The notes under the pieces were generated by a model, which was not told the origin of the DNA, made no database searches, and worked only from the letters and a program-made list of their open reading frames with translations. Shown one piece after another: positions 12,442 to 49,219 of a stretch of 64,000 nucleotides of DNA. The DNA lies in contig NZ_CP084265.1 of assembly GCF_022879595.1 (NCBI RefSeq), forward strand, positions 2,356,001 through 2,420,000. The letters are read 5' to 3'. Position 1 is the first letter of the stretch; each line of letters starts with the position of its first letter. The DNA is from Caballeronia sp. Lep1P3. Its GTDB lineage: Bacteria; Pseudomonadota; Gammaproteobacteria; Burkholderiales; Burkholderiaceae. The translations under genes were made by a program, and so were the position numbers.

Positions 12442-12807
12442 TTCTTGTATTAGTCTAGTGCAGCATTGGAAGAGTCGGCGCTTAGATGTCAGGGACGCAG
12501 CTCGGAAGCTCAACACCATAGATTCTACCGATATAGAGGACATTTTCTGCCCAGTACACTCCTAGCCCCTTGGTTGAATGAATCTCAGCAAGCTCAGCGT
12601 CAGTGACCCGCGCCAGATGACAACGGCCGAACTCGCTAAATGCCGGACACTCGTTCTAATGCCAAAGCCATTGCAATGCCTCACAATGAGCGCAGGGATA
12701 GCTCAACGTCACCAGCCGTCACGTCAGTATTCAACCTGGCGCCTTCGGACAGCAGAATTCTGATGCCGTAATCAAGCGGCATAGTCATGCAATGGCAGTC
12801 AGTTCTC
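12442..12807. other. intergenic stretch with leader of the 12441 gene
   Basis: 366 bases. It contains the candidate promoter at 12522-12553 reading leftward. The rest shows no convincing gene on either strand. Confidence 0.5.
12537..12553 (-). promoter_or_regulatory. weak regulon site, upstream of 11731-12441
   Basis: Minus strand TGGGCAGAAAATGTCCT. The downstream half TGTCCT is perfect, the upstream half poor. TAGAAT (12522-12527) follows after 9 bases. The paralogous gene at 28099 has a good site in the same place, which supports this one. Confidence 0.4.
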
Positions 12808-12984
12808 TTAATCATTTTTGTCGCGTTGGCTGCGGGTGGGAACGAACTTACGTGGCCAGCGCCTCTTGCCGGCGTGATACACCTCGTCGAACAGAGACCA
12901 GTCCGCGGGGGGATTCGTCGCGATGTCCCGCAGATTGCAAATCTTGTCGGCGAGCTCGGCGAGCTTCGCACGGCAACTGACCAT
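12808..12984 (-). pseudogene. fragment of an HD-domain hydrolase gene
   Basis: Minus-strand AKLAELADKICNLRDIATNPPADWS matches AKLVKLADKICNLRDIAASPPADWS of the intact gene at 8366-8893 (shown here in part). The HD and ED motifs are absent and the reading leaves the homology after about 25 residues. A duplicated, decayed piece. Confidence 0.7.
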
Positions 12985-13024
12985 GAGGCATCCCCATACA
13001 AGGTTGACAACGTCGCTTACGCGA

Positions 13025-13231
13025 TTATTTGACGCTTCTCCAAATGAGGGCAGATAGTTGGTTTCCAGTACCGATAGTCCGGAAATGGCTGTCCCGGGTC
13101 TTGTCTTCTCGCGGGTTGTACTCCCCGACGCGAGCGAAATGAGCATCCCGACCAACCTGTTTGCCCGTCGAATCCGTCTCGATACTGCCAATAACCTTAA
13201 AATGGTCGTCTCGCAGATATTCTGTGCTCAT
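13025..13231 (-). CDS. small hypothetical protein, 68 residues
   Basis: ATG at 13231, with GGGG about 7 bases upstream. Composition is charged and repetitive around (R/D)DxHFxxIG: LRDDHFKVIGSIE, GRDAHFARVGEYN, TRDSHFRTIGTGN, i.e. three repeats of a motif of about 20 residues. A full regulon promoter (13307-13339) points at it. Function unknown. Confidence 0.6.
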   Translation of the reverse strand: MSTEYLRDDHFKVIGSIETDSTGKQVGRDAHFARVGEYNPREDKTRDSHFRTIGTGNQLSALIWRSVK

Positions 13232-13322
13232 TCAAGCCCCGTAGTTGGTGACGTATTGTTGCGCTCGCGTTGGTCGCAAACGGGGACCCCGTTGCGCACC
13301 CGAGCCAGTCTACGTCTCAGCT

Positions 13323-13339
13323 GGGACATTTCATGTCTC
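13323..13339 (-). promoter_or_regulatory. regulon site, promoter of 13025-13231
   Basis: Minus strand GAGACATGAAATGTCCC, then 10 bases, then TAGACT (13307-13312). Confidence 0.75.
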
Positions 13340-13419
13340 GAAACAAGTGGAATCAGAAATTCTCGGGCCACCGCTCCCAGAAGCACGGTTCGTCGTGGTG
13401 CGAGTTCTTCATCGCGTTC

Positions 13420-13760
13420 TCAAGGGGCACACCTTAGGACTTGAACGTCGTCGAAGCGCATGGTGCCGTCCGGGTACTCGAAGAATGCCTGCACCTTCCA
13501 GTACTCTGCGTCGCCTTCGTCAAACGGCACGTCGATGAAGACCGCACCGGCGTATGAGTGCGTCACCGTTTCCGACGCATATGGCCGGCACTCGCGCCAA
13601 GGTGCGTACTGGGCATCGAACCACTGCAAAACGCATTTTCGACTGTCCAGTTCCGCGTAATCCTTGAAGTTCGGCCGGTCCGCCAGGTCAAAAATCGAGA
13701 TAGAGCACGTCTCGCTACAGCTTTCGTGCAATGGCGTCGATGTGTCCGAGTAATGCCGGC
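13420..13760 (-). pseudogene. decayed paralog of the 46465-46875 gene
   Basis: The true start is ATG 13760 behind GGGAAGGG: MPALLGHIDAIARKL then TAG, where the intact paralog reads MPMLIKHIDAIAREKQ. After the nonsense codon the match continues (RDVLYLDF), then shifts frame to ELDSRKCVLQWFDAQ, HSYAGAVFIDVPFDEGD and GTMRFDDVQV. One nonsense and one frameshift are visible. The C-terminal ~25 residues are missing. Function of the family is unknown. Confidence 0.75.
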
Positions 13761-46875: not shown

Positions 46876-47393
46876 GCCGTCGGTCCCACCCTAGCGGCTC
46901 TCTGTTCGCCGCGCCAAACGTACTCTGAAAAGAGTTCTTCGCCCGGACGCTGAATGCCCCGCCGCCATCCAAATCAGGGTAGTTGCGAACGAAAAAAGAG
47001 CACCGAGGCAATTATGGAGGGCAGCCGAACGTCGGAACGTCGGGCATACGCGGACGGATTGCCATGCATCTCTGATTCGAGTTACCGACTTGTCCGGCAG
47101 CAGAATGTCCCTCTGATTATAGGCTCGCGCGGCCGAGGAGCCAACCGCGGCTCCTCGATTCTAGTCAGCGTTCTGCCCTGCATCCTTGTCTTGCCACAGT
47201 TGCGCGTCGCCGGCATACGCTCGTTGGGACGCGAAACGTCCCAATCGTGACGGACGATTCAGATGTAGCTGCAACGAAGCAGTTAAAGAATTTCATTAGC
47301 TTCGCCGATACTTTCGTTGAAAAGTCCACGGCGTCGGGACGACAGAAACATCCAGCGCCCAGACTGCGAACCTTATCTGCTACCGTGGAAATC
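46876..47393. other. intergenic gap with a leader repeat and a regulon site
   Basis: About 520 bases. GTTGCGAACGAAAAAAGAGC (near 46981) and GAGGCAATTATGGA repeat the leader of small-family copy 4 (37165-37200), but the small protein is not recognisable downstream. The regulon site is at 47226-47242. Confidence 0.5.
47226..47242 (+). promoter_or_regulatory. regulon site, promoter of 47394-48065
   Basis: GGGACGCGAAACGTCCC, 10 bases, GACGAT (47253-47258). Confidence 0.7.
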
Positions 47394-48065
47394 ATGTACG
47401 AATCCGTGCTGCAATACGTCAGGAATCGAATCGAAAAGTTGCCGGAGCAATATACCTGGTCATTCACTGAAGGGGCGCTGCCTTTCGATATCCGGTTGCC
47501 TGCGGGCTCATGGTTTGAAAAGAACCTGGCGCTGAAAAAAGCACTTCATTTGGCGTGGCAACTCGGCTCGCGCGACGCGCGCATAGCGTTATGCGACTGG
47601 TATATCTCTGTTTGGGGCGGTATCCGGCGGAACAGCGCTGAGAACATCCGCCTTTACGCTACCGGGAGCGAGGAAAATATTTTTGCGCGCGGAGTCCAGG
47701 GAATTGCGTCCTGGTCAAAGGCGCTCACCATTCGCGACCCGGGCAGGTTCGCGATTTTTGACTCTCGCACGTCGGTATCGCTGACAGCCATCCAAGTCCT
47801 GGCGAACACGCCCGACCCCGTCATATTCCCGCCATTGCCCAGCCAGAACACGCAGGTGAAGGGCGCGAGTGCGCTGGTCAGGACACTTTGCAAGACACGC
47901 GCGTTTCAACGCGTGGCGCCCTCAAGCTGCTATGCGGATTACAACAGGCTTTTGATAGACGTTGCAAAAAACGTCGGCCGGGGCATCACAAATCAGATGG
48001 TGGAGATGGTCCTGTTCGCTGATGCCGAGTTGCTGGGCGAAAAGTTGATTCGCCACTATCAATGA
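47394..48065 (+). CDS. hypothetical protein, possible OGG-like fold
   Basis: 223 residues from ATG 47394. A GTG at 47247 in the same frame lies upstream of the -10 and is therefore rejected. VWGGIRRNSAENIRLYAT, RGVQGIASWSKALTIRDPGR and FAIFDSRTSVSLTAIQVL follow a pattern (SKxL...PxRFAxxD) also seen in 26472-27329 and in proteins with an 8-oxoguanine-glycosylase-like fold. Catalytic residues not established. Confidence 0.65.
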   Translation: MYESVLQYVRNRIEKLPEQYTWSFTEGALPFDIRLPAGSWFEKNLALKKALHLAWQLGSRDARIALCDWYISVWGGIRRNSAENIRLYATGSEENIFARGVQGIASWSKALTIRDPGRFAIFDSRTSVSLTAIQVLANTPDPVIFPPLPSQNTQVKGASALVRTLCKTRAFQRVAPSSCYADYNRLLIDVAKNVGRGITNQMVEMVLFADAELLGEKLIRHYQ

Positions 48066-48517
48066 AATTCCCTTTACGGGCGGCCACGTTCACCAGCATA
48101 GATGCAATGGTTGCTTGCCGCAGAAAGTCGACTCTTGCCGTTCAGCGGAAGCAGGAGAGGGGCTTGCGCCCTTCGAGCGGAATCGTGGCGACGCCGCCTC
48201 GCTCCCTAGTTGCCTGCGCGCCATTGCAGAGGCCATCGCAGACCTTCGTGCCAGCGCGCGCTTATCGCAGGCAAGTATCGAATCAGGACGGCGCGACGGC
48301 ACGACGTCTCGCTGTGTTGTGCGTCAATCTCCGATTTGCTTATGGGGCGAACCAGCCGATTCGATAGAGACGCCAAATGTCCCGATGCACAACGACAATA
48401 CGTCATCGAAAGTCGGCGAATGCTTGGGCGACGACATCCATGCGGACGGGTTAGGACGCGCCACCGTTGCTACCTTAATGCCTGTTTTACAGGGCACACA
48501 AGAACCTGAGAGAACAG
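48066..48517. other. leader region of small-family copy 2
   Basis: About 450 bases. The second half, from CCGATTCGATAGAGACGCCA onward, is repeated in front of copy 3 (near 48960). Open frames here look like noise. Confidence 0.5.
48367..48383 (+). promoter_or_regulatory. regulon site, promoter of small-family copy 2
   Basis: GAGACGCCAAATGTCCC, 10 bases, GACAAT (48394-48399). Confidence 0.75.
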
Positions 48518-48898
48518 ATGAACAGCAATATCAAAGAGAGGAGCGGCGTCCAGAGCCCGCATACGGCTCAGAACGTTGACGCCGCTATCGCGCATCTCGA
48601 ACGCATACTGTCGTTAGAAGGCTCCCACTCATTGTTCGGCCAGACCTACTGGCGAGCCCGAGTCATGCAAGTATGCGCAACCCGCGGGCTGATGCACGGG
48701 CAGCGGACGCGGTTGCAACGACTGCTTGGCCTTCTTGCGGACGCCGCAAGCACGTCACCGCCCCAAAGCTCGAGCTACAAAAGTCCGGGACAGGATGGTT
48801 ATATGGCTAGTCTGGACGGTTTGCGTCATTCCGAACAAGTAGGACAGGCGACAACGGTACGCGTGGCGACGCACCTATCACGGGCGAATGTCGCATAG
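48518..48898 (+). CDS. small repeated family, copy 2 (intact)
   Basis: 126 residues, ATG 48518, right behind the conserved leader AAGAACCTGAGAGAAC. Conserved part: TAQNVDAAIAHLERILSLEG, LFGQTYWRARVMQV, RTRLQRLLGLLADA. Two amphipathic helices around a central aromatic strand are suggested. The C-terminal 45 residues are not shared. The only complete member of four; function unknown. Confidence 0.7.
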   Translation: MNSNIKERSGVQSPHTAQNVDAAIAHLERILSLEGSHSLFGQTYWRARVMQVCATRGLMHGQRTRLQRLLGLLADAASTSPPQSSSYKSPGQDGYMASLDGLRHSEQVGQATTVRVATHLSRANVA

Positions 48899-48970
48899 GA
48901 CGACCGAACGCCGCTTTGCCGCATTTCGCCGTTCGCAATTTGCCTATCGTCGGAATCATCGGATTCGATA

Positions 48971-48987
48971 GAGACGCCAGATGTCTC
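48971..48987 (+). promoter_or_regulatory. regulon site, promoter of small-family copy 3
   Basis: GAGACGCCAGATGTCTC, 10 bases, GACAAT (48998-49003). Confidence 0.75.
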
Positions 48988-49219
48988 AATGCGCGGAGAC
49001 AATAAGCCATCAGCACTCGGTGAGCTTTTCCGCAACGACATACAGGCGGACCTGGCCATGGACGCGCAGGCAGCGCCATTTCGCTCCCTGATTCCTGCCA
49101 CGAGCCAAAAGTGCGCAAGCTGGCTTGCCGTCGTCGGAAAAAGTTGACGACCGCGCGACGCACCGACGGTCGCATGTAGCGTTTCGGAAAAAAGCACCAA
49201 AGAACCTGAGAGAAACCAG

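Follow-up and report, generated by a model that had tools for sequence, protein, structure and literature searches.

Several regulators carrying a WYL domain have been described, and the excerpts available of the source papers ascribe different modes of action to them. DriD of Caulobacter crescentus is a homodimeric WYL activator that binds single-stranded DNA (ssDNA). Its palindrome, ATACGAC-N7-GTCGTAT, overlaps the −35 element, with the two DNA-binding domains flanking sigma region 4, and its sites lie at a constant distance from poor −10 boxes (excerpts of PMC12340889). PafBC of mycobacteria is an ssDNA-triggered WYL activator of the damage response that changes −35 recognition (excerpts of PMC11804915). 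As far as these excerpts go, WYL regulators of mobile islands are described as local repressors, and DriD as governing a small chromosomal regulon. Here we describe a 64-kb stretch of Caballeronia sp. Lep1P3 (C1:2356001–2420000 of the 6.18-Mb genome, hereafter the window), which holds 17 promoter-like palindromic sites distributed along 36 kb of what appears to be an island. Judged from sequence comparison, these sites are quite probably bound by the WYL protein encoded at window position 14037, which would work like DriD.

A palindrome at a fixed distance from −10-like boxes

The consensus palindrome GRGACRNNNNNYGTCYC has eight exact matches in the window (13323, 13920, 13946, 35747, 44249, 47226, 48367 and 48971). 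The whole genome contains it at 20 places, compared with none for a reversed control, and eight of these 20 copies fall in the 36 kb of the window block (13323–48987). With one mismatch allowed, the genome-wide count rises to 190 against 83 for the control, so many of the single-mismatch matches outside the block are attributed to chance. A search of the window with the plain consensus and up to two mismatches was too loose and was set aside as weak evidence (47 matches against 33.4 expected, a number reached by 3 of 100 shuffles).

A 17-bp matrix was built without any window sequence, from 34 distinct sequences found no more than 135 bp in front of the WYL genes of other genomes; two mismatches or fewer gave such a sequence in 42 of 50 WYL loci, and chance probably accounts for a few of the 34. 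With a threshold of 11 bits, this matrix finds 20 matches in the window, whereas 60 dinucleotide shuffles average 1.8 (at most 4). A sequence-only reading of the same DNA had counted 18–19 sites, and 17 of the 19 positions that it named are recovered at this threshold, the one given as 31819 falling at 31820. The remaining two fare less well: 12537 scores 7.1 bits, which is chance level by score, although the minus strand has a TAGAAT at a distance of 9 bp, and 32417, at below 7 bits, is unsupported and was dropped. Three matches of at least 11 bits lie beyond that list (40626, 43552 and 56942), the latter two inside genes by our own gene calls. All 15 sites of at least 12 bits lie within 13323–48987, with none elsewhere in the 184 kb scanned around it, and all 15 are intergenic by the same gene calls, compared with 33% for a random 17-mer; at 35180 (11.9 bits) there is an overlap with a low-scoring reading frame. 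The 17 sites have a GAC-N7-GTC core, from which some depart by a single mismatch, and both half-sites are conserved, making this a two-fold palindrome rather than a one-sided motif.

The claim of the sequence-only reading, a set of palindromic sites at a fixed distance from −10-like boxes, is confirmed for 17 sites. In 17 of 17, at least one flank of the palindrome has a hexamer of the form xAxxxT that starts exactly 10 bp away. Among the 15 sites of at least 12 bits, 13 have at this spacing a hexamer with at least four of six matches to TATAAT (27867 and 34640 have three of six), and spacing 9 gives one good −10-like hexamer; at any spacing but these two, the average is 0.21 of the 15 sites (largest 2). 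The same hexamer test at random positions gives a mean of 0.19 and a largest value of 3 in 5,000 draws. The best −35 candidate at 16–18 bp matches at one to four of six positions, with a mean of 2.5 compared with 2.3 at random, and the palindrome itself occupies the −35 position of these putative promoters, again in line with the earlier claim. The geometry recurs in other genomes, where 120 distinct sites of at least 14 bits have a −10-like hexamer at spacing 9 in 34 cases, at spacing 10 in 52 and at other spacings in 0–6. Chromosomal WYL genes of Caballeronia mostly have spacing 9 with TATAAT at their autoregulatory sites, and most other such sites have spacing 10.

The spacing also bears on whether the palindrome might be a non-regulatory repeat or recombination site spread with gene cassettes. 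Paralogous genes do carry the palindrome, and the sites at 48367 and 48971 are close copies of one another; the flanks, however, look unrelated at most sites, and neither the fixed −10 spacing, the association with WYL genes nor the single chromosomal sites fit a repeat, a reading that we regard as scarcely credible and rejected on the spacing. LexA-type boxes were considered and dropped as candidates, since the half-site appears to differ from theirs.

The association with WYL genes was measured in three samples. Across 50 WYL loci (960 kb), the exact palindrome occurs 68 times and the reversed control 0 times; with one mismatch, the counts are 133 and 9. Within 135 bp upstream of the WYL gene itself, a site with at most one mismatch is found in 37 of the 50 loci (control 0), and 39 distinct promoters, that of the window included, lead into a WYL gene. 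For whole genomes, the palindrome together with a −10 box was counted against the presence of a WYL match (E ≤ 1e-3 within the genus, E ≤ 1e-40 outside it) and the counts were put to Fisher tests. Among 58 genomes of the genus, it is present in 44 of the 45 that have a WYL match and in 2 of the 13 that have none, kinship being ignored, and the reversed control gives four matches in all (G014, G017, G025 and G042). Among 258 other genomes of the family, again ignoring kinship, the corresponding fractions are 21 of 29 and 29 of 229, with the control matching in 10 of the 258. Six other chosen WYL-bearing stretches comprise five with 5–7 sites of at least 12.5 bits in 24–55 kb, some of these sites having no −10-like hexamer, and one with a single site. 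A link between the palindrome and WYL genes is thus supported by comparison across genomes.

The WYL regulator and its described relatives

The gene at 14037–15095 (plus strand) encodes a 352-residue protein, identified as a WYL regulator by Pfam in agreement with the sequence-only reading (WCX, E = 2e-13; WYL, E = 7e-5; both over the cut-off). In its structure model, the N-terminal helices and a two-strand wing form a winged helix–turn–helix (wHTH; mean predicted local distance difference test score, pLDDT, 79; predicted TM-score, pTM, 0.53), so that wHTH, WYL and WCX stand in one chain as in DriD. A protein search returned 110 homologues at E ≤ 1e-5, and those with a name all come from Burkholderiaceae genera. 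Because the palindrome tracks the presence of WYL genes across genomes, the 14037 protein is the likely reader of the sites, to which it is predicted to bind. Its own gene lies behind the palindrome at 13946 (13946–13978, plus strand, 17.1 bits), with TACAAT after N10, and begins 54 nucleotides after the assumed start point.

DriD is the best match by both profile and fold. In the profile search, DriD (7tzv, 6e-13) ranks ahead of PafBC (1.6e-6); identity to DriD is about 16–20%. The best Protein Data Bank match in the fold search is DriD 8tp8 (E = 1.8e-13), with a TM-score of 0.42 for the whole chain and 0.73 for the C-terminal part (target length). An Arg pair in the WYL domain, R232/R235, is largely kept and aligns with DriD; a pair of this kind binds ssDNA in PafBC (excerpts of PMC11804915). 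The promoters of didA and driD, as printed in the excerpts of PMC12340889, have an xAxxxT hexamer starting 12 bp after the GTC/GGC half-site. We read this hexamer as the −10 box, which is consistent with the G−14 reported there, and the distance equals that in the window, where the bases after GTC in GTCYC plus N10 also amount to 12 bp.

As described in those excerpts, DriD thus shares with the window system the wHTH–WYL–WCX build, a GAC-N7-GTC palindrome over the −35 position, a fixed −10 distance, a site at its own gene and divergent promoter use. The two differ in the outer half-site bases (GRGAC/GTCYC here, ATACGAC/GTCGTAT in DriD), in sequence, and in scale: about five promoters are named for DriD, whereas the present palindrome also occurs in islands, with 17 sites in one of them. 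SiwR of Mycobacterium smegmatis is alike in being a homodimeric WYL activator, with a 19-bp imperfect palindrome between −35 and −10, and differs in controlling an adjacent two-gene operon (excerpts of PMC10693628).

The sequence-only reading had taken PafBC as its model, with a TGTC-N12-TANNNT spacing and a PafBC-like adaptation of sigma, and PafBC is indeed a profile and fold relative. PafBC, however, is a heterodimer of which only PafB touches the −26 motif, and it does not bind promoters without polymerase (excerpts of PMC11804915). The window has a single WYL gene instead of a PafB–PafC pair, the other two full-length homologues lying elsewhere on the contig, and its motif is a true palindrome rather than one-sided. 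DriD, moreover, is better in both profile and fold searches and matches the palindrome and the spacing. A PafBC-like mechanism is accordingly held to be improbable, and Caulobacter DriD appears to be the closer model, because it has the same GAC-N7-GTC core, the same −10 distance and the best profile and fold match. Since DriD is closest, the regulator would probably be a homodimeric, ssDNA-triggered activator.

The other polarity of control would be a repressor of BrxR/CapW type that blocks the promoters until phage or damage signals release it. BrxR/CapW are WYL proteins of mobile defence-like islands, WYL repressors of defence islands are known (excerpts of PMC9122601), the palindrome overlaps the promoter core, and the fold search matches CapW and BrxR at E of about 1e-6 to 2e-4 (best 9e-7). 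BrxR differs in having two operators in its island, with longer 11-bp repeats, and its operator sits downstream of the predicted −10 (excerpts of PMC9122601), unlike the sites here. No BrxR/CapW chain is among the nine profile matches at 1e-3. A repressor would also not require a fixed −10 distance over 17 sites or −35 matches at random level, and we consider repression unlikely.

The sequence-only reading spoke of one accessory WYL regulator, a description that does not hold for the genome, which has three WYL paralogues: the window copy, one at C1:628977 (78% identical) and one at C1:746269 (54%). The window and C1:628977 copies do not differ in the residues of the presumed recognition helix and may for this reason share sites. 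The C1:628977 gene has its own site and is adjoined by a SIR2 gene, and about 6 kb from it two sites face a 421-residue SbcD-like protein (Metallophos; TIGR00619 below the cut-off) followed by a 1,160-residue protein; the matching pair in locus L028 is Metallophos plus AAA_27, the build of SbcD–SbcC. It is therefore conceivable, if on balance doubtful, that the chromosomal paralogue is the main reader, the island copy being redundant or competing and the host regulon being tapped, an arrangement compatible with DriD-like activation by the 14037 protein. The shared helix residues, the chromosomal copy's own site and the sites at the nearby SbcDC-like operon speak for it. Against it, the island brings its own WYL gene with its own site, and WYL genes in other loci sit among sites.

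Target genes and the surrounding island

The target of a site was set mechanically as the longest frame whose start falls within 350 bases, a rule that assigns some genes wrongly. Families behind sites in the window include a 5'-nucleotidase/SIR2 run, a TM0106 nuclease-helicase, a DUF2779 run and others without family assignment; Pfam, NCBIfam and PADLOC mostly gave no family for the unassigned targets. Three paralogous proteins of about 330 residues (30–34% identity) stand directly behind a site in two cases and second in a run in the third, and two paralogous 148-residue proteins (31%; 35251 and 35806) also follow sites. Homologues stand behind a site in other loci for the WYL gene, the 5'-nucleotidase (six loci), the TM0106 nuclease (one genome) and the 126-, 103- and 331-residue families. 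The TM0106 nuclease is found in 3 of 299 genomes and the 331-residue protein in 4 of 398 (own genome included), and this rarity limits whole-island comparison.

In the following, the hexamer lies after N10 unless stated, and strand and score are given in brackets. At the left end, the weak palindrome 12537 (12522–12553; minus; 7.1 bits only) has TAGAAT after N9 and precedes 11731–12441 (minus), a protein 47% identical to that of 28156–28833, which has a good site. This paralogue belongs to a stretch, 9499–12441, that is a decayed second copy of island genes, holding in addition a wHTH fragment 44% identical to WYL residues 37–80 and a DUF2779 fragment. The palindrome 13323 with TAGACT (13307–13339; minus; 20.1 bits) has an uncertain downstream gene. 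The palindrome 13920 with AATTAT (13904–13936; minus; 16.2 bits) points toward 13420–13731 (minus), which encodes a 103-residue protein of no known family; a homologous gene stands behind a site in L056 and L126. Right of the WYL gene, 15439–16164 (plus) encodes a SIR2 family protein (E = 5.5e-30), and the WYL genes of L009 and L072 likewise have a SIR2 neighbour. In L072, plasmid pSBC2-5 of Caballeronia sp. SBC2, typed as mobilizable, the WYL relative next to the SIR2 gene is split into two annotated genes.

The palindrome 21379 with TAGGAT (21363–21395; minus; 17.2 bits) precedes a run of a 5'-nucleotidase (PF06189; 20426–21334; minus; E = 9e-111; PADLOC candidate PDC-S08) and a second SIR2 family protein (19602–20429; minus; E = 2.5e-21); six other loci likewise have a homologous gene that follows a site. 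The palindrome 23443 with CATAAT (23427–23459; minus; 18.8 bits) leads first into 22774–23190 (minus; 138 residues, no known family) and then into 21649–22641 (minus), a protein without family assignment that is a paralogue of 23943 and 25474 (30–32% identity). These two have sites of their own: 23665 with AATACT (23665–23697; plus; 13.7 bits) before 23943–24944 (plus; no family assignment, 34% identical to 25474), and 25407 with TACGAT (25407–25439; plus; 17.0 bits) before 25474–26469 (plus), the unassigned 331-residue protein, a relative of which at G020:C260 is also directly behind a site. The palindrome 27867 with TAAGCT (27851–27883; minus; 14.3 bits; hexamer three of six) precedes 26472–27260 (minus; no Pfam match). 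The palindrome 27968 with TACCAT (27968–28000; plus; 14.3 bits) precedes 28156–28833 (plus; no Pfam match; paralogue of 11731–12441), a DUF2779 protein with weak Cas4 similarity (28889–30460; plus; DUF2779 E = 1.3e-43, Cas4 E = 7e-5) and a NUDIX protein (30649–31005; plus; E = 8.7e-12).

No clear gene follows the palindrome 31820 with TACAAT (31820–31852; plus; 19.9 bits), downstream of which a transposase lies within the regulon block (33229–34116; rve; IS3-type by plasmid annotation). The target of 34640 with CAAACT (34640–34672; plus; 12.8 bits; hexamer three of six) is uncertain. The palindromes 35180 with CACAAT (35180–35212; plus; 11.9 bits) and 35747 with GACAAT (35747–35779; plus; 23.2 bits) precede the unassigned 148-residue paralogues at 35251–35697 (plus) and 35806–36249 (plus), respectively. 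RmuC (37775) was rejected as a target: the match in front of it, at 37614, has only 7.7 bits, a level at which shuffles average 13 matches. Site 44249 (44234–44281), the highest scoring in the window at 24.3 bits, reads two ways, with TATCAT after N9 on the minus strand and TATCGT after N10 on the plus strand. To its left lies a TM0106-family RecB-like nuclease with helicase domains (40743–44204; minus; TIGR03491, E = 4.7e-98), the orthologue of which in L058 (G285:C57) is also behind a site; to its right lies a run of proteins without family assignment at 44423, 45226 (partial PDC-S11 match) and 46465 (44423–46875; plus).

The palindrome 47226 with GACGAT (47226–47258; plus), an exact consensus scoring 11.5 bits with a hexamer of three of six, precedes 47385–48065 (plus; no Pfam match). 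The palindromes 48367 (48367–48399; plus; 15.8 bits) and 48971 (48971–49003; plus; 15.3 bits), both with GACAAT, form two closely similar promoters 600 bp apart (48367–49003), a clear gene standing behind the first only. This gene, 48518–48898 (plus), encodes a 126-residue protein with 71% identity over 62 residues to the 73-residue product of a gene that neighbours the SbcDC-like operon on the chromosome and itself follows a site. Further genomes of Caballeronia have the palindrome between lexA and a 117-residue gene of no known family, with five distinct promoters of the latter; lexA itself was checked in L111 only, where the site is directly after lexA (L111 1501–1967). A site also precedes a pro-kumamolisin/S8 peptidase family in other Caballeronia genomes, with nine distinct promoters (Pfam run on L015 only).

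The window lies in a region of deviating guanine–cytosine content, 55–62% over about C1:2340000–2476000 compared with 63–70% on the left side. A tRNA-Leu gene is located at C1:2342749–2342833, a 21-bp copy of its 3' part recurs at 2473968, and beside this repeat is a 494-residue integrase-like frame with a Pfam match below the cut-off. With a tRNA end, a direct repeat and an integrase-like gene over about 131 kb, the region looks like an integrative island or mobile element with an expanded DriD-type regulon. Conjugation genes were absent among the ten large flank genes scanned, no systematic search for them having been made. The protein search returned a WYL protein 98% identical to the 14037 product, and a relative of the 331-residue target, 86% identical, is found in Paraburkholderia caledonica; because both are recorded on a 219,835-base contig, probably the same one, transfer of island genes between genera is suggested. 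A search for near-identical plasmids with window 12600–37500 gave 84 records, and the 20 matches listed aligned only at the IS3-element stretch. No WYL relative of the 14037 kind was found in the viral contigs searched, and Rfam (gathering scores) and tRNA scans of the window gave no match.

Several further gene groups surround the regulon. To its left, without strong sites, window 3503–8271 carries genes for the exonuclease VII large subunit and an ADP-ribosylglycohydrolase. To its right, a RepC and RepA-like (AAA_25) pair at 50250–52135 suggests a replication module in the island. Beyond the window, genes for a KAP NTPase, a 294-residue protein, a QueC-like protein and a 248-residue protein stand in a row (L140:3890–8623, that is, G000 C1:2423890–2428623), with two domains found; the row looks like a Qat anti-phage operon.

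A candidate mobile regulon triggered by single-stranded DNA

A number of observations weigh against binding of these sites by a DriD-like activator. Identity to DriD is only about 16–20%, model confidence is moderate at the pLDDT and pTM given above, and the whole-chain TM-score is low. The three paralogues, two sharing the presumed recognition helix, make the assignment to 14037 non-unique. Sites 31820, 34640, 48971 and 13323 have no convincing downstream gene, and promoters 13323, 23443 and 27968 match TTGACA at four of six positions. A site directly in front is missing from two of the three TM0106 relatives and from three of the four relatives of the 331-residue protein (G053, G004 and G020:C200). 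Among the targets are several that do not belong to DNA repair (SIR2 and the nucleotidase; the peptidase in core genomes), and none of the DriD targets didA, bapE, recJ and dnaG is among those that could be named. Thirteen of the 50 WYL loci have no site of at most one mismatch in front of the WYL gene; outside the genus, 8 of the 29 genomes with a WYL match lack the palindrome, which 29 of the 229 genomes without a WYL match possess. The co-occurrence counts, besides ignoring kinship, include pseudogene fragments as WYL matches in the genus.

We infer that binding is by the 14037 protein, not by a paralogue, and that it activates the promoters in response to ssDNA, the output being a reaction to damage or invasion. 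In the predicted sequence of events, ssDNA would free the WYL homodimer, which would grip a half-site on each side of the absent −35 element and thereby recruit sigma-70 RNA polymerase to the weak −10 boxes. The resulting DNA-damage or invasion response would comprise nucleases, nicotinamide adenine dinucleotide (NAD)/nucleotide enzymes and proteins without family assignment. Gene duplication and gain, with a separate promoter copy for each target, most likely account for the growth of the island regulon.

The kind of WYL activator represented by DriD is already known; a mobile, expanded regulon of that kind is new to us, and among the matches listed in the open-licence PMC literature no description was found of this regulator or of a WYL regulon of this kind. 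The broader proposition, to which we give even chances, is that a mobile element possesses a complete regulon of its own, independent of SOS, triggered by ssDNA and made up of one DriD-like activator and about 14 promoters, and that WYL islands recur in Burkholderiaceae, sharing operators with a chromosomal DNA-repair regulon. If so, a non-SOS damage response would be seen to travel as a unit, and the nucleases and NAD/nucleotide enzymes of the element would all be induced together by damage, or by DNA entering from a phage or plasmid, in any host that it reaches. The operator code (GRGAC-N7-GTCYC with the −10 box at 10 bp) would then be readable for finding defence and repair genes in Burkholderiaceae, and the target families without assignment would become testable as a group.

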